DNA of 64,000 nt, from the NCBI GenBank assembly GCA_949987565.1, contig OX465118.1, forward strand, positions 7,811,564-7,875,563, read 5' to 3'. Origin of the DNA: Luidia sarsii (lineage: Eukaryota > Echinodermata > Asteroidea > Paxillosida > Luidiidae). Under the pieces are notes generated by a model. The model was not told the origin of the DNA and did no database searches. It was given only the letters and a program-made list of their open reading frames with translations. Both the position numbers and the translations under genes were made by a program. Positions 39,877 to 63,825 of this stretch are shown here, piece after piece (within the stretch, counting starts at the first letter, position 1; every line of letters begins with the position of its first letter).

Positions 39877-40195
39877 TAAAATTTAGTGGGCCTGACGTTT
39901 TGATCATAGCAGGACCTTTCTCAAAGGCAGAGGGAAAACTTTTTAAAAAATTTCTTCTGAAAAATGGTAACGAGTACTTTGACTGGACTGGGACTTGAAC
40001 CTAGAACCTCTGGTCTTACGTTACCAGAGCTCTAATCACCTAAGCTATCCACCCCTTAGATGGTGGCCTTCTCAAATAGTTAACTTGGGCCAACGTGATG
40101 TGGATATAAACAAAACACTTAAATAAAATCTAACTTTTGAAATGTATGTACTGCAGGTCATTTTAGTCAGTGAGCAGTTTGCAGCAGTTTTCGTA
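39877..40195 (-). mobile_element. Hairpin-end repeat interrupted by a tRNA-like SINE
   Basis: AAAATTTAGTGGGCCTGACG..CTCAAAGGCAGAG at 39877-39932 is the hairpin arm. The head in inverse orientation (TTTTAGTCAGTGAGCAGTTTGC) appears only at 40160-40182. Between them is a tRNA-like unit at about 39965-40062 with a minus-strand B box GGTTCAAGTCCCAG and an A-box-like TAGCTTAGGTGATTAGAGC, so one repeat has inserted into the other. Confidence 0.6.
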
Positions 40196-41600: not shown

Positions 41601-44600
41601 GTATAGACAGCCAAATGGGTCTGGCACCCTATAGGCCTATAATCACCAGTTAAGACCTCGTTGAGTCAAAGGCCCTATACAATGGTAAAGGTCAAAAGAG
41701 TCTGGCACCCTATACAGTCGCCAGTTAAGACCTCGTTGAGTCAAAGGCCCTATACAATGGTAAAGGTCAAAAGAGTCTGGCACCCTATACAGTCGCCAGT
41801 TAAGACCTCGTTGAGTCAAAGGCCCTATACAACATTGGTAAAGGTCAAAATAGTCTGGCACCCTATACAATCACCAGTTAAGACCTCGTTGAGTCAAAGG
41901 CCCTATACAACATTGGTAAAGGTCAAAAGAGTCTGGCACCCTATACAATCACCAGTTAAGACCTCGTTGAGTCAAAGGCCCTATACAACATTGGTAAAGG
42001 TCAAAAGAGTCTGGCACCCTATACAATCACCAGTTAAGATCTCGTTGAGTCAAAGGCCCTATACAACATTGGTAAAGGTCAAAAGAGTCTGGCACCTTAT
42101 ACAATCACCAGTTAAGACCTCGTTGAGTCAAAGGCCCTATACAACAGTGTTAAAAGTCGAACGATTGCCACAGTTTGTGTGTTAAACCATTAAACATTCC
42201 AATAACGAAATCCTGGCTCAGTGCTTTGCCCGATTGCCTGATGAAAACCAATCTAGGCAGCTCGGGCGGGATTCGAACCCGCGTCTCCCGCTTTCTGGTG
42301 CAGTTAACCATGCACTTGACTACCGAGCCAGGGCCCACTTTCATTAAGCGTGAAAATCTGCTAAGCAGAAAAAAGTCTTCCTCGTGTAAGCAAGGATTAC
42401 AAACTGCACTGCGATGCGATGCCAATTGCTTTTGACTTGTATTCCACTCTCTTTACTTAGCATGAAACAAAAGTGAAGTTTGGGTTGGCAAGGGGATCCT
42501 GTGGCTCATGAGTTTTTGCGCTTAAGCACATTTTGACGCTTAAGCGGCTCTATGAAATTGGCCCCAGGTCGAGGTCGTGTGGCGGATTCGAATATTGAAT
42601 ATCATTGAAAATAAGCCGTCTGCACTACAAAGCGGGAGTCGCTGGCAAAACCTCTTTGTTTAATTGAATTGTGATGTTGTGGTTTACAAAACGAAATCCT
42701 AAGATTGGTACCGTGCATTTGGTGGTTTTTTCCCCCAAACAGATCCAGCGGCGAACTCTGAACCCCATCTACCGGCAGAACTTCATCTTCGGCCTGGGCG
42801 AGGAGGCCGTGGCCCACACGGTGGTCAGACTGACCGTGCTCGGTCTGGACCGCTACTCGCATCCGGTCAACATCGGCCAGGTCCTGTACCCGCTGCGCGC
42901 CCACGACTTCCGGCCCTCGGCCGGTGACGTCAGCGAGCCCATCTGGCGCGACATCGAGAAGTCGGACGCGGTGAGTGCATCGAATGACCGAAGCGACACT
43001 GAACAATACAAAGTTCGAACAGAGACAGTATGAAAGATGCACTTACCCGAAGTTGAGTTACTCTTTTCAGAGCTGCCACACTCCTTCTTGAAAGAGAAGT
43101 GTTACATTGTGTCACCGCAAACCTTCCATTTTAGTATTTCCACCATGCAAACCTTCCAGTCTTATCTGCCAGATACACTCCGTAATCCTATCCAAAATGA
43201 CTGAAAGAAAACCAAAACAATGTTACGGGCAAAATACAATGGCGTGGGCTATGTGAAATTGAATTTGAGGTTCCCTATATGAACCATGGGTAAGGCTGCA
43301 CAATAAATCGGCAGCACACATTCTAGCATTGAATAGACTCTCATAGAAACGTTGAACCTTTCTTTCACGCGCGATGGAATCAAAATGCGTGACTTGAAAT
43401 CGCCAACTCGTTCTTGATCCGTGGTGCACTAACTATCCATTGGTCTTGTGTCCCGCCTTCACCAGCGGTGAACTGGTGGCGGAATTTGCTTTCGCGGGCG
43501 CCAGGCTGCAGGCTCGGAGTGACGCGTTGTGCTCATGCGCCTTGGTGCAGGAAACTATTGGCTATGGCTAGAGGTAACGCGCAACCCTATGGGAACTGGC
43601 TGCAGCCGCTTGTTGACGACTTCCATAGGCTCGTGTGCACTTTTAATCTGTAGCCAAAGAAATTTGGACGCAGCCGTTTAGCACGCGCTTTTTAACCGGT
43701 TTGTTTGGCCGTTCCCTTTCCAGCCGGAGGAGCCGCAGCAGGGCGACATACTCTTCTCGCTGACCTATCTACCCAACGCTGAGCGAGTCACCGTCGTCAT
43801 AATCAAGGCGCGCAATCTCCGCCTGCCGGAATCGGAAGAGCAAGACGCCAAGAAATTAGGTGAAAAGGAGCAATAAAAAGACTTAGGCCGGGTCACGAAA
43901 CGGGCTTCCAGAGCTACGGCTAGGGCTATTACCTCCGTGTATTTCCAATAGGGGGAAGATGTACCTAGACCTAGCTCTAGACGCCCGTTTCGGACACGGC
44001 CTAACGTTCGTAATTCGAGCATTTTAAGTTGAGCATCCATTTTGATTGTCATATCGCGAGTTGAACTACGTTGCTCTGGCAGATTTTTTGACAAAAGTTG
44101 TCTCCCAATTGCCCAGTGTTGGACACCTTCGTCAAGGTGACGGTGGTGCGAGGGGACAAGGTAGTGAAGAACAAGCAGACGTCCGTGGTGAGACGCAACG
44201 CCAACCCCACCTTCAACGAGGCCTTCACCATCGACATGACCTGCGAGAATGAACAGGTAAGGAGACACCATTTCTCGTAGCAAAGGAACTTTCAATTTCC
44301 TTTCAATAGCCGAATTTGAAGGTCTGTTGGCTTGATAGGTATACAGAGCATTCACCAAGAAACTGAGGCCAAACGCTTGTTTTGAGATGCCTGTGATATT
44401 ATAACGGGTAAGAGAAATATGACCGAAGCCTTAGCTCGAGCCTAAGCCTTCATTTCGTAGACGGTCTAAGACTCAGTTGCAGGTTCAGCTGATGGTGTCA
44501 CCTGCCCATACAACTGGCTTCTCATTGATGAGAGGACCCAGCGTTCCGACCCCGCTAGAATCTGTCCGTGACAAAATAAAGGCTTAGCCTCGGGCTTAGG

Positions 44601-50391: not shown

Positions 50392-53300
50392 CTGAGCGAG
50401 ACAAGGGAAGAGAGTAGACTCCAATATCAATCAATGGACAAAGCTTTGTGGTCCACAGAGATAGATAAAGAGAGATATAGAAAGAGAATGAGATGGAGAG
50501 AGATAGGTTGAGAACTTGAGAGAGCAAGAAAGAGAGATAGAGATGGAGAGAGAGAAAGAGAGATAGAGATGGAGAGAGAGAGAAAGAGAGATGGAGAGAG
50601 AGTAGAAACCTAATTGAGAGGAGAGAAAGTAGACTCCAATATCAATCAATGGACAATTCCGTGTGGTCAACAGAGAGAGATAGAGAAAGAGAGATAGAGA
50701 AAGAAGAGAGATTAAGATGGAGAGAGAGAGATTGAGAGAGCGAGAAAGAGAGGTAGAGAAAGAGAGAGAGATGGAGAGAGATAGATGGAGATGGAGAGAG
50801 ATAGAGAGAGATTGAGATGGAGAGAGATAGAGTGATAGAGAAAGAGAGAGATAAAGAGATGGAGAGAGATAGAGTGATATAAATTGAGAAATAGATAGAG
50901 AAAATAGATGGAGAAACAGAGATAGAGATGGAGAGATAGAGTGATAGAGAGAGATAGAGATGGAGATAGAGATAGAGAGAAGATACACATGTAGAGAAAC
51001 AGAGATAGAGAGATAAAGAGAGATATAGATGGAGAAAGAGAAAGGTCGAAATGTCAGGCACTCTAACTTTTGAGATTTATCAATTTCAGGTCATTTAAGT
51101 CAATGAGCAGTTTGCAACCCTTTTTTATCCACTTCATGAGTAAAACGAGTTGGTTGCTGTGCGAAAGAGAGGTGACAAAAGACTGACCTTGTGTGACTGA
51201 GTAGCAGATGAGCATATCTGCCCCTGCGGGTACCGTAGGGCGGGGCCCACTGTTCACCACAGTGTAGCCTCTGGCATCGGTCTGGTCCCCTTCCGGGGAG
51301 TCCGTCTCCAGACCGATCTCGTGCTTATACCCTCGGCATGCCTGCGGAGAACATCAAACAAATGGATTTAATAATACTGATAATACATCACTTGAATGTC
51401 TACCCCTTGAACCCTTATCCCTACCCCTTTCTATCTCTATTTCTCTTTCTCTAACCACTATCTAATGGGCCCAACTCTTGTGATATACACAAATGTTGCA
51501 AACTGCTTACTGACTAAAATTACCAAAGTGCAAGTCTCAAAATTTAGTGGGCCTTACGTTTCGATCCTAGCAGGACCTTTCTCAAAGGCAGAGAGAAAGG
51601 TCCTGCTAGGATCGAAACGTCAGTGATATACAAAAATGTTGCAAACTGCTTACTGACTAAAATTACCAAAATGCAAGTCTCAAAATTTAGTGGGTCTGAC
51701 GTTTCGATCCTAGCAGGACCTTTCTGTCTGCCTTTGAGAAAGGTCCTGCTAGGATCGAAACGTCAGGCCCACTAAATTATAAGGGCCCAACTCTACTTCA
51801 TCCAGCAACTAGTTGCCTCCTGGGTCTCCTCTACCCTTGGCACCCACTCTCACACTGACACACTCCAGTGAACTTCCTCTTCTTGCCCTGGTGGTCACAC
51901 TGGCGGGAAGATCCTGCACGCTCCAGTGGCCGCACTGGACGGGAAGGATTCTCCACGCCCCAGCGCTTTCATCAGGCATATAATCACCGATGATAGTTGG
52001 AATCCAGCAGTCTCCAGCGGTACCACACCACCCAAAACGTTTAGAGTTACCGGCTCTTTTCAGAGCCACACTCCTTGAAAGAGAAGTGCTACATGGGTGT
52101 CACAGCAGACCTTCCAATTAACTTCTCTTTCTGTAAATCTCTCTTTCAACTCTCTTACAAACAGACTTAAATTCTCTCTCAAACACTTTCTCTAAAACAG
52201 TCTTTTGAACGCTCATAGTAACTACATGCTGGGCCACTTTTCAGTACTGCCCATGACCGCTACAAAGGTGCTTTTTTTTTTCTTCAAATGATGTGCCATT
52301 TTAAAAACTCGATAAACAATTGGGAACAATAAATAAATCACTGAGTACAGTATGTATGCAAGTGAGTAAAACCTGGCACAATTGGACGTCTGTGTAGCTT
52401 TGGTCATGCTACATATTGATTTGTTCTAGACTGAAAAGAGCCTTTGTTTAAAACTTGGACAATAGTGGTGCCCGTACTCTGAGAATCCGGAACATAGTAA
52501 CACAACCGGCGCTCCAAATCCAGGAGTCCCGGCCCAATGTGGTTAACACAAGTCACACACATGCTATCAATGCCATTTTTGGTTTGTTTTAAAGGAAGTG
52601 TATATTCACCCGCCATTCTCCCCGGAGGTCATTCCAGCTGATGGTATCCATATTCACAAGCACTCTTTACTCTGATTGGCCAATGTCCGAGTATACAGCA
52701 ACACGAATTTGCATAAACATGATGTCATGGCAATTGGCCACACAGACTAAGGGACCGCCAGAATAGCGTTTGCAGGGAGAATGCCGTAGCCGGGTCAAGA
52801 AATAACCTGCCTTATTTTTAAATGTACCTGCACGAGAAATACTTTGGGCTTTCCGACGAGGGAGGGGCACTTATCCCCTCTGAAAGTGTCGAAGAGATCC
52901 TGCAAGGGCAGCGTGCCGTCATAGCCGTAGATGATACCGTCGTCCCCGTGCGTGAGGAAGGCACAGAGGAAGCAGTCTGAACTGGAATGGTCTGTACCCT
53001 GAGCCGCTGGAACAAAAAAAAAGAACACCCCGAGAAATAAAAAGGGGGCAAATATCCAAATTCTGGGCTGGAGCCATAGAGCTCTATAAATAAACTAAAG
53101 TGCGCACTCATCGCGTGACGCGTGCCGACAAGGGGACTGCGACGCCATTACCAAATAAAATACATGTAGTCTAAAAAACAACTGTAAATATGCTTACCAA
53201 TGCAAAAAAGGGCACGACCGCCAAGGTAAAAATAGGGCATGGCCAAACTGGCCGTGAAGAGGCTGCTTGGCCGACAAAAAAAGAAACGCTGATACAAGAA

Positions 53301-59860: not shown

Positions 59861-60285
59861 CAACACCGGCTTTGTTTTTAATACGAAGTCCCTGATCTCA
59901 TCCAGACCTGTTGTGACTTGTTCGTGCGTGTTAACTACTCATCTTGTAAGTTGTACTTGTAACTGTGTAATGTAAGTACTGGGTAAGATTTTTCAGTATC
60001 ACCTCGCACTTTGTTGTTGGAATTTTCTTAATTCTTGGGATGTTGGGATGGTTTTTATAAGCCTTGGGCGGATGCAGATGCAGACGATTGTCCGAGTAGA
60101 TTGGACTTAAACCGGCGTTTTATTGTTTGGACTTCACGCCCACCGGTATTTCACTATTTAGTATTTTATTTAGTATTCTTTATTGTATTCTTAGTACTTT
60201 TTTTAGTAGGCCTAGTAGTAGTACTACAACTACTAGTACTACGGTACTAGCACGACCTCACGTTGCTATTTGCACAAATTGTTCA

Positions 60286-60545
60286 AAAGTGATATACAAA
60301 AATGTTGCAAACTGCTTACTGACTAAAATTACCAAAATGTAAATCTTTAAATTTAGTGGGCCTGACGTTTCGATCCTAGCAGGACCTTTCTCAAAGGCAG
60401 AGTGACAAGGACAACACAGATACATGTACATGAGCCTTTGTGTACATGTATGTCTGTGTTTTCCTTGTCACTCTGCCTTTGAGAAAGGTCCTGCTAGGAT
60501 CAAAACATCAGGCCCACTAAATTTAAAAATTGTTCAAAAGTTAAT
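60286..60545 (+). mobile_element. Hairpin-end repeat family GACGTTTCG, complete copy with 14-bp target duplication
   Basis: GATATACAAAAATGTTGCAA head, then TTTAGTGGGCCTGACGTTTCG and CTCAAAGGCAG. The palindromic loop includes a CATGTACATG word (AGTGACAAGGA / TCCTTGTCACT), followed by the inverse arm. AATTGTTCAAAAGT stands on both sides. Confidence 0.85.
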
Positions 60546-61063: not shown

Positions 61064-61202
61064 ATGCGGTCTCCTCTCAAGGCTGCAAAACGGATGGAGG
61101 GACCGGCCGAGGACAAGCCGTCCAAGAAGCGAGTGAGACAGGCCAGCCTGGAGGAGTGCTTCGGCTTTGCCGCCAAGCGCAAGAAGTCAGCGCAGGAAGA
61201 GA
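61064..61202 (+). CDS. Unknown gene, exon with first ATG
   Basis: 46 codons plus one base, GAAGAGA|GTGAGT. In-frame TAG at 61016-61018 limits upstream extension within this exon. Confidence 0.6.
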
Positions 61203-63825
61203 GTGAGTTCAAAGCTTCGAGGCATATAAGCGTTACGACGTATGACACTTAACCACCGTGGCGAAGCTATAGGTGCGCATGCGCGAAGCCAGGTTTTGCT
61301 GAGGCCTCCCCCATTCATTCATTCATTTCTCAGGTAGTTACAGGCACAAGCACGAACCAACTCTAACAATTATCCTTATCCTAACCCTAACAACCCTAAT
61401 CCTGAACCTAACCCTAATCCTAATCCTAATCAGTAACGCTAACCCAACCCGAACTCTAACTCAAACCGTAACCATAACCCTATCCGTTGCGCCCTAAGCC
61501 TAGCCCTAACTTATGCTGGTTTACCAAACACGTCCTTGTATAGTCCCCACACAATTTACGGGGTACCAGCATGGCTCAACGACGGTGGTTAAGCTTCATA
61601 TGTTGGTCCTGTTATATATCTCAAGCTTCTGGCCAAGAAAGAGAAACCACGGTCTCCACCCCTTTCCTCCTAGTCTTAAAGCCCCTACACAACATTGGTT
61701 GAGGTCAAAAAATAGCATCCATACGTTGTCTAATCCAACATAATGCATGAAATAGCACACCTGTGAAAATATCAGCTCAATCTGCCAACTGAGTCTCGAG
61801 AAAATTGTGAAAACCGCTTCATTTTTTTCGCGAACATGCAGCATTCAACGCCGTACTGTTCCGAAAAATAGTGTAGATCTCGGTGAGACATAAACTATTT
61901 CTTTTACTCTTTTCTCCCAAAATACAACATTTTAGGCAGAAATATTTCAGTGAGAGGTTTCTACTATAACCATCTTCAAACTGTATAAGTTTCATGTAAA
62001 TCTGTGAACATTTCTGTTTTTCGATCTTACCAATGTTGTGTAGGGGCTTTAAGGGGGTCACACTAATTGGCGTCAAGACGGCGTCAAGACAAGATAGTGG
62101 CGTCAACAAGGCATCAACACATTCAAAATGTATCATACATTGGAAATAAATACACCAGACTATGATGAATATTATCAGAGAAGATTTGCATTGGGTTTTA
62201 GGTTATATTTCAATGAATTTCAACCTTAACTTTTGACTGGGAGTTGAGAAATGACATTTGTGACTCTGACTCAGACTCGGCCTGAATGACTCAAGACTTG
62301 GGCTCGGAACTCGAGAGATGTGACTCGCAGTACAACTCTGGTTTGGGGGGCTGCTCTGTCAGGAAGTGGTCACGTCGCTCGATGCACTGATGGCATTCTG
62401 TCCTGATGATGGGCAGAACACATACATGTATTACCCAAAATCTTGAGTTACCGGCTCTTTTGTCACTGCAAACCTTCCATTTAGTTTTTCCACCGTGCAA
62501 ACCTACAAGTCTTATCTTTCTGTTCTCATTGTTTTTGGTTTTTTTTTTTATCGTGACTAGTTGAAGGGCTTAAAAATTAGTGGGCCTGATGTTTGGATCC
62601 TAGCAGGACCTTTCTCAAAGGCAGAGTGCCTTTGAGAAAGTTCCTGCTAGGATCGAAAGGTCCTGCTAGGATCGAAACGTCAGGCCCACTAAATTTTAAG
62701 ATTTGCATTTTGGTAATTTTAGTCAGTAGGCAGTTTGCAAATTTTTTTGTATATCACTAGTTGAAGGGCTGAACTTGGAGGACGTTGCCAGCATGAGTGC
62801 CTGTCCTCGAGGGGAGGAGACATCGGACCAGAAGAGGCGACGAGAGCAGATAGCTGCAGCGGCAGAGAGGAGGAGGTAGGGTAACTCAGTCCTGAACGTG
62901 CGGCCGATTTCACCAATCTCACCGAAACTTACGATGAATCGTAAGACCATGAGTGATGCACAGAAACCATACGGCCTTTCACAATTAACAATGGGTTATC
63001 CATCTTATGTTGAGTTAAGATGATGATGCATCGTAAGGCTTTGTGAAACCCACCCCTGGTCCCTAAACCGACCCATACTTACTGGAGCTGAGTTTTTTCA
63101 CGTCGTAAGTGATTTTATCCTTGTCATTCAGCCTGGGAGAAAAAGGCCCTGCTAGGATCGAAATGTCGGGCCCTAAGTCCTAATTTATGAGAAGGGCATT
63201 GGTTAGGAGGAATCATTGACTGATGTGTCTCTGTAGCAATCGTGTCACTCGGTTATTTATTTCTCTCCCCCCCCCCTCACACACACATACACACCCCAAG
63301 GGCGTCCCAGTCTCCCGACCATCCCGGCCCCACATCACCGACAACCGACCTCACCTGCCCCGGGATATCGCGGCTCTCGCCCGACACCAGCCTACCCGCA
63401 GCCGAGAGGGCTCCCGGCAACTCGCCACCCGCAGTGGGCGTCGACGCGAAACGCCGGGATGCCGCCGCCACAGGAAACGGCAGCGGCGGGACGTCCCTCC
63501 CCTTTTTCGCGTACCTCGAGGGCGGCGGCGCGGAAACGGCCGCGGCCACTTCGGCCGGAGCGCCCTCGAGGAGAACCACACGGCGGGGGCTCGACGAGTC
63601 GGCCCCGTCGACTTCCGCGACGCGCGACGACAGACCGACCGCATCGACGAACCGCGAGACACCAAAAACTCGTCCGGACCGCTCGCACAGGATGGACCCC
63701 GGCAGCGCCTTGCGGCACGTTCTGGACGGAGATGACGACGACGAAGAGAAGACGGCAGCAGGCATCGCCACGGGAGACGTCTCACCCACGTTAGAGTACG
63801 AGTCCTCCTTGCCCTTGTTCTCGGA
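61064..63825 (+). CDS. 5' part of an unrecognised, probably nuclear protein gene (3 exons seen, continues past the right edge)
   Basis: Exons 61064-61202, 62761-62875 and 63301-63825 join in frame for about 259 codons (phases 1 and 2), and a good donor GGA|GTAAGT at the end shows the gene goes on. I do not recognise the family. Visible features are two basic clusters (KPSKKRVR and FAAKRKK), and between them QASLEECFGF, which resembles a PCNA-interacting (PIP) box lacking one aromatic residue. A basic helix DQKRRREQIAAAAERRR resembles, loosely, RPA32-binding helices of DNA-repair proteins. A long disordered Pro/Ser/Thr/Arg-rich part follows, with an acidic DGDDDDEE stretch near the end. Genome-maintenance function is inference only. 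ATG context is weak and an upstream exon may exist (see 57735). Confidence 0.6.
61348..61512 (-). repeat. Degenerate interstitial telomere-like repeat
   Basis: CCTAACCCTAACAACCCTAA and further CCTAACCCTAATCCTAATCC blocks, decaying outwards to CTAACCCAACCCGAAC-like units. On the minus strand this is the metazoan telomere unit TTAGGG in degenerate form. It lies in the first intron of the unknown gene. Confidence 0.8.
61680..62048. mobile_element. TTAA-flanked MITE (piggyBac-type), copy 3
   Basis: AGCCCCTACACAACATTGGT to ACCAATGTTGTGTAGGGGCT, perfect inverse complements. TTAA is on both sides (61676-61679 and 62049-62052). Confidence 0.85.
62576..62745 (-). mobile_element. Hairpin-end repeat family GACGTTTCG, copy with 15-bp target duplication across a splice site
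   Basis: In inverse orientation: GATATACAAAAAAATTTGCAAACTGC head, CTACTGACTAAAATTACC, both arms of the GACGTTTCGATCC hairpin (with a local GGTCCTGCTAGGATCGAAA duplication) and the end CCCACTAATTTTTAA. ACTAGTTGAAGGGCT flanks both sides (62556-62570 area and 62756-62770), spanning the exon acceptor. Confidence 0.85.
62761..62875 (+). CDS. Unknown gene, second exon
   Basis: Acceptor ATATCACTAG|TT; donor AGGAGGAG|GTAGGG, phase 2. Encodes EGLNLEDVASMS and a basic helix. The acceptor lies inside a duplicated segment (see the element at 62576-62745). Confidence 0.7.
62895..63059. mobile_element. MITE with TTTCAC..GTGAAACCCACCCCTGG ends
   Basis: Right end TTTGTGAAACCCACCCCTGG matches in inverse the left end of the element at 9408. 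The interior shares CACAATTAACAATGGGTTATCC with its inverse there. The left end is diverged. Confidence 0.55.
63130..63180 (-). mobile_element. Hairpin-end repeat family GACGTTTCG, short fragment
   Basis: GGGAGAAAAAGGCCCTGCTAGGATCGAAATGTCGGGCCCTAA, one arm only, in the second intron of the unknown gene. Confidence 0.55.
63301..63825 (+). CDS. Unknown gene, third exon
   Basis: Acceptor CACCCCAAG|GGCG after a C/T-rich tract; donor TCGGA|GTAAGT. 174 codons, GC-rich. The phase fits the preceding exon exactly. All three frames are open over part of the exon because of the GC content, so the frame is chosen on phase, on the splice donor and on the acidic, EYESSLPLF-type end. Confidence 0.6.

Follow-up and report, generated by a model that had tools for sequence, protein, structure and literature searches.

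Duplication of a splice acceptor on either side of a repeat insertion in a PARG gene of the sea star Luidia sarsii

Retroposons of the SINE and LINE type insert by target-primed reverse transcription and are flanked by duplications of variable length. Introners and other transposon-made introns, according to the available portion of PMC9860276, recruit splice sites from their own target-site duplications. Splice sites drawn from transposon duplications are thereby of a kind already known. Judged by titles and the opening lines of abstracts, an incomplete search of the literature gave nothing plainly concerned with a duplicated acceptor.

I consider here a locus at which an acceptor stands on both sides of an inserted repeat. 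It lies near the end of the window, by which I mean the whole stretch of 64,000 nucleotides analysed (contig OX465118.1 of L. sarsii, positions 7,811,564 to 7,875,563). The features of the locus are collected in Table 1.

Table 1. Positions of the features discussed, counted from the first base of the window (a slash marks an exon boundary)
Feature	Position	Strand	Basis or remark
PARG exon 1, from the frame's first ATG	61064..61202	+	donor AGA/GTGAGT, phase 1; homology to P0001
Branch-point-like CTCAT, perfect yUnAy	62525..62529	+	A 32 nt before end of upstream acceptor; no intervening AG
Run of 11 T, pyrimidine tract of probable ancestral acceptor	62539..62549	+	sequence
Upstream target-site duplication, ACTAGTTGAAGGGCT	62556..62570	+	acceptor A1: AG 62559-62560, exon start would be 62561
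Hairpin of the element's inverted arms	62569..62701 (ends approximate)	+	folding
Foldback element, 185 bp, right end ...TTTTTTTGTATATC	62571..62755	+	repeat-family matches
In-element acceptor A2, GGCAG/TTTGC	AG 62732..62733, exon start 62734	+	in frame, adds CKFFCISLV
Element T7 run, would-be pyrimidine tract for A3	62742..62748	+	sequence
Downstream target-site duplication, ACTAGTTGAAGGGCT	62756..62770	+	acceptor A3: AG 62759-62760, exon start 62761
PARG exon 2	62761..62875	+	donor GAG/GTAGGG; 115 nt; homology
Codons for RRREQIAAAAERR, match to p97/VCP-interacting motif R-x5-A-A-x2-R	62835..62873	+	motif scan, predicted
PARG exon 3	63301..63825	+	donor GGA/GTAAGT; homology

The host gene and its doubled acceptor

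The host gene is PARG (poly(ADP-ribose) glycohydrolase), on the + strand, with 16 predicted exons and 845 codons. With the PARG of Acanthaster planci as guide, 15 of 15 junctions were found and the 845 codons, which extend past the end of the window, are open; the enumeration took only stop-free GT-AG pairs, and the open frame is thus partly by construction. The product is 67.7% identical to Patiria P0002 (845 columns), 66.4% to Acanthaster P0001 (851 columns) and 60.1% to Asterias PARG, the homology being colinear over the whole protein from residue 11 on. The sea-star proteins P0001-P0003 fall at 60-68% over 845-863 columns and the lancelet P0007 at 55% over 571 columns, and the records of P0001 and P0002 carry PF20811 and PF05028. 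Past the window's end, in the intron after exon 11, the stretch G000:C21:7884356-7884409 duplicates a PARG exon piece (SLLFTEVLDPNECLIIKG) in part.

The initial annotation took the exon beside the repeat to be coding, entered from a donor at 61202 with its start at 62761. Both positions hold in the sequence, and homology to sea-star PARGs identifies the exon as exon 2 of this gene. Exon 2 by itself drew no match in a comparison of three sea-star PARGs with this locus; its coding support is the stitched alignment. When exons 1 to 3 were stitched and used as a padded query, 7995 candidates were scored and one relative came out, the PARG of Acanthaster planci (E 3.0e-21), whose alignment crosses the junction of exons 1 and 2 without a gap. 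A homology search with a 259-residue piece returned none of 4921 candidates at E <=10; Pfam yielded one match (E 0.22, below the cut-off) and the solved structures one (E 1.5). The excess of GC at third positions is 0.145 in the stitched exons (reached in 0 of 2000 shuffles) and 0.06 in exon 2 alone, and among 228 other stretches of the window there are 10 that equal the stitched exons in their best frame. Since exon 2 is near zero and those ten stretches do equally well, codon periodicity gives weak support, and homology carries the coding claim.

The 15 bp ACTAGTTGAAGGGCT occurs twice in the window, each time without a mismatch, and there is no third match at up to two mismatches; at that tolerance 0.20 matches would be expected in the window, and two were reached in 3 of 100 shuffles. 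The spacer between the two is the 185-bp repeat copy. The duplicated site is the acceptor ACTAG/TTGAAGGGCT, now present twice, 200 nt apart, so that the duplication of an acceptor and exon start around an insertion stands as first described. One coordinate needs correction: the upstream exon start had been given as 62571, which is the first base past the duplication, ten bases beyond the correct 62561. Read from there, exon 1 continues as ...EEIEGLKN and meets TAG after GAA GGG CTT AAA AAT, as had been predicted; the stop is the sixth codon after the junction codon and the product has 52 residues.

ACTAG/TTGAAG is very likely the ancestral acceptor, copied by target-site duplication, since the three sea-star orthologues (3/3) have no extra residues where exon 1 joins exon 2 (Asterias has one fewer). 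Homology picked 62761 among AGs with exon starts from 62723 to 62787, a range in which 62561 does not lie. Read upstream of the ancestral AG, the frame of exon 2 hits TGA at 62554-62556, a further point in keeping with an exon start there. The upstream copy keeps the T-rich tract attributed to it (Table 1), and of the branch-point motif used for scanning, yUnAy, it has a second perfect instance, with its A at 62514, 46 nt upstream of A1. The site before insertion should have read ...TTTTATCGTGACTAGTTGAAGGGCTGAACTTGG. A search for an insertion-free second copy of exon 2, with a query containing 40 nt of that exon, found none: among the best 40 of 4171 candidates, no match from outside the window went past position 203 of the 241 in the query.

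The inserted repeat and its family

The family is a short, non-coding foldback repeat. Its core pattern, GGATCCTAGCAGGACC, has 15 matches in the window at up to three mismatches (0.27 expected), at 8 separate places, and with fragments included the family matches 13 regions of the window. The animal's own genome (470,920,150 bases in 227 contigs) gave 93 family matches from the best 40 of 4171 candidates, and extrapolation from the window makes tens of thousands of copies likely. With so many copies, and with duplications of about 13-15 bp, some insertions must hit splice sites by chance. The inverted arms reach the left end of the element; on the right they are followed by a tail of about 55 bp, and the right end of the element is nearly constant in the family (TTTTTGTATATCAC). 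The form first assigned to the arms survives in the right one, which keeps CGAAACGTC, but the left arm of this copy reads GATGTTTGG.

To count duplications I used 40 fetched stretches and three copies from the window, the one at exon 2 included and the window's other copies and fragments left out; L015 (tandem copies) and L023 (which overlaps L052) were removed, leaving 41. Exact flanking repeats of 9-16 bp were found in 34 of the 41 and of 5-8 bp in the other 7, the commonest length being 13. As a control, mispaired flanks of family copies shared at least 9 exact bases in 56 of 1640 cases and at least 15 in 0 of 1640. Long, variable duplications together with a near-constant right end point to a family that moves as a retroposon rather than by cut and paste, despite its foldback body.

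Compared with the base most common among the other copies, the exon-2 copy shows differences at 11 of 172 sites; the copy closest to it differs at 7 of 166, and there are 2 of 42 copies without any difference. By these counts the family has recent members, and the exon-2 copy is not among the newest. Five kinds of change that follow one another are found again in the lists for L013, L014, L019 and L025 (compared by letters, not positions), which suggests a subfamily. Its private change I estimate at about 3-4%, changes of the source copy included, and the 95% limits, taken for either 5 or 7 changes, are 1.0-8.7%. The age of the insertion is uncertain, and some of the differences may stem from the source copy.

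The stretch 62515-62800 folds at -119.1 kcal/mol (shuffles -73.26, sd 4.57). Rfam gave eight matches to the element at E <=1, all to microRNA-hairpin families and all below the gathering score; I regard these as a by-product of the hairpin and reject the element as a known RNA.

Other repeats occur in the window. A further family copy, inverted, lies about 2 kb upstream at 60276-60541 with a 15-bp exact flanking repeat, and at 51467-51794 two tandem 143-bp family units, 92% alike, sit in a single 12-bp flanking repeat as a composite insertion. Two tRNA-family matches above the gathering score, possibly SINE-related, are found on the minus strand at 39980-40054 and 42258-42329, and a 78-bp tandem array of 6.7 copies (96% matches) at 41641-42158.

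Which acceptor serves exon 2

The account I prefer, and hold tentatively, is that productive splicing goes mainly to the downstream copy, with the upstream copy a leaky poison site. Insertion at the start of exon 2 would have produced the 15-bp target-site duplication and so doubled the ancestral acceptor. Joining 61202 to 62761 would then restore the ancestral mRNA and the normal 845-codon PARG; a second in-frame AG inside the downstream duplication, giving an exon start at 62767, six bases further on, would serve as well at a cost of two residues. Use of 62561 part of the time would yield a nonsense transcript, and a minor in-frame form through 62734 is possible. For the downstream copy, the AG and exon start would be the host's, and the pyrimidine tract and branch point would have to come from the element. 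The initial annotation had the element supplying the 3' splice site, and this is right as to the T-rich stretch but not as to the AG, which is host sequence in both copies, nor is there a perfect yUnAy from the element within the 15-62 nt searched. Its choice between a working site and a poison one also proves too narrow, given the in-frame acceptors at 62734 and 62767.

Two scores were used to compare the candidates. The first, trained on 14 other acceptors of the same gene, is noisy (true sites run from -5.4 to 12.7); it puts 62761 at 2.4, rank 5 of 86 AGs, and 62561 at -2.3, rank 21 of 86. The second was built on general frequencies, by which the gene's other acceptors span -3.2 to 8.4; here the two duplicated acceptors come out alike, at -2.4 and -2.9 (ranks 23 and 30 of 86), close to the low end of that span, and lie below two in-element AGs that lead to nonsense, 62730 (-0.4) and 62723 (-1.7). 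As to folding, the mean unpaired probability over four settings is 0.15-0.40 for A1, 0.28-0.32 for A2 and 0.40-0.46 for A3, and pairing between the two ACTAGT palindromes has a probability of at most 0.14. The idea that the hairpin hides one acceptor was set aside, as these values give just a small lean to A3.

Downstream use is favoured by the ancestral mRNA it would restore, by its rank among gene-trained scores and by the slight lean in folding, as well as by a frame that is open although the insertion is not brand-new. Against it stand its low score on general frequencies, the higher scores of 62730 and 62723, and the branch-point motifs, which favour the upstream copy.

Those same points could be taken to mean that a nonsense acceptor wins, a possibility to be taken seriously even if I rate it on the doubtful side. 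Most transcripts would then be nonsense, spliced mainly to the upstream copy or else, within the element, to 62723, 62727 or 62730, and end in products of 52, 58, 58 and 57 residues (those from the in-element sites 57-58). A1 is met first; 32 and 46 nt ahead of it stand perfect yUnAy motifs, and it has a T run and no AG between, whereas A3 has imperfect yUnAy only, with up to four AGs between, ending at 62722, 62726, 62729 and 62733. The sequenced chromosome would carry an allele that is weak or null as regards full-length PARG, or a downstream start would give an N-terminally shorter enzyme; human PARG isoforms without exon 1, or without exons 1 and 2, exist according to the part of PMC7485115 available. 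The catalytic exons could stay intact through such a start even without splicing of exon 1 to exon 2, and it is possible that the insertion is still polymorphic and that the allele is defective. What speaks against a prevailing nonsense acceptor is that exons 1 and 2 both have an open frame and can be aligned with orthologues, that the family has younger members than this insertion, and that the gene-trained score gives A1 -2.3, 62727 -2.1 and 62723 -7.0 as against 2.4 for A3.

It is unlikely that the element's own acceptor, GGCAG/T at 62734, is the one used, so that PARG would carry nine element-derived residues, CKFFCISLV. This AG is the only one of five in the element's last 65 bases to keep the frame open (854 residues, 27 nt more than from A3), and the first at least 12 nt beyond a branch-point-like A at 62721. 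Even so, it is the lowest of the eight acceptors listed on general frequencies (-5.2) and ranks 68 of 86 on the gene-trained score, and CKFFCISLV is found in none of the three sea-star orthologues. Skipping of exon 2 is quite improbable: both copies score low on general frequencies and a strong hairpin adjoins them, but the loss of 115 nt would shift the frame, and the product would stop after 210 residues, short of the catalytic part.

QASLEECF, encoded in exon 1 (61064-61202), resembles a PCNA box. For PCNA foci the N-terminal sequence of human PARG is reported to be important (PMC7485115). Exon 2 and the first codons of exon 3 encode RRREQIAAAAERRR, which contains two overlapping matches, RREQIAAAAER and REQIAAAAERR, to the VCP-interacting motif (VIM), defined in the portion of PMC5725882 available as R-x5-A-A-x2-R. 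Of the 120 PARG homologues listed (from 1056 found), 25 carry a VIM match, those named being from sea stars, sea urchins, a sea cucumber, crinoids, acorn worms, a lancelet, corals, a sea anemone, a horseshoe crab and a ribbon worm. Among the same 120 of 1056 there was none in rows named as vertebrates, and the motif is missing from P0008, P0014, P0027, P0077 and P0091, among other non-vertebrate rows. Composition shuffles match at 0-3.6% per protein, the whole protein being scanned where the catalytic start was not recognised. A link of invertebrate PARG to p97 through this candidate VIM is possible. Solved structures gave nothing up to E 10 for a 25-residue piece, and I found no paper that pairs PARG with 'VCP-interacting motif', while papers that share PARG and p97/VCP terms exist.

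It is conceivable, though a long shot, that the doubled acceptor acts as a switch, the choice between upstream and downstream copies setting the amount of PARG that carries the N-terminal QASLEECF and RREQIAAAAERR motifs, with a shorter catalytic form made from a downstream start. Were this true, a repeat insertion would have created, in a sea star, a counterpart of the N-terminal PARG isoforms that mammals have.

The locus beside known systems

The locus offers a natural test of 3' splice-site choice, as an identical AG and exon start occur twice, 200 nt apart, in one intron, behind different upstream contexts: the original branch point and T tract in one case, element sequence in the other. 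RNA reads could tell whether the choice of acceptor is governed by branch point and tract or by position. The locus also shows one way for a repeat to hit a splice site without necessarily destroying the gene.

As with the introners, in so far as they are described in the available part of PMC9860276, the element is short and its target-site duplication provides a splice site. Unlike them it appears, from homology, to have copied a pre-existing acceptor, and it makes no new intron, having inserted at the end of an existing one. Retroposon insertions reported in NF1, in Pompe disease and in dystrophin likewise lie within genes and may give nonsense or altered transcripts; those are disease mutations, whereas the PARG frame here, known from sequence alone, is otherwise open. 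A MITE would have a duplication of fixed, short length and terminal inverted repeats at both ends, and here the length varies up to 16 bp and the right end is a tail of some 55 bp. The family differs from retroposons of the SINE and LINE type in its foldback hairpin body and in that a poly(A) tail was not identified. It resembles them in the near-constant right end and in the long duplications of variable length, as expected of a target-primed retroposon.
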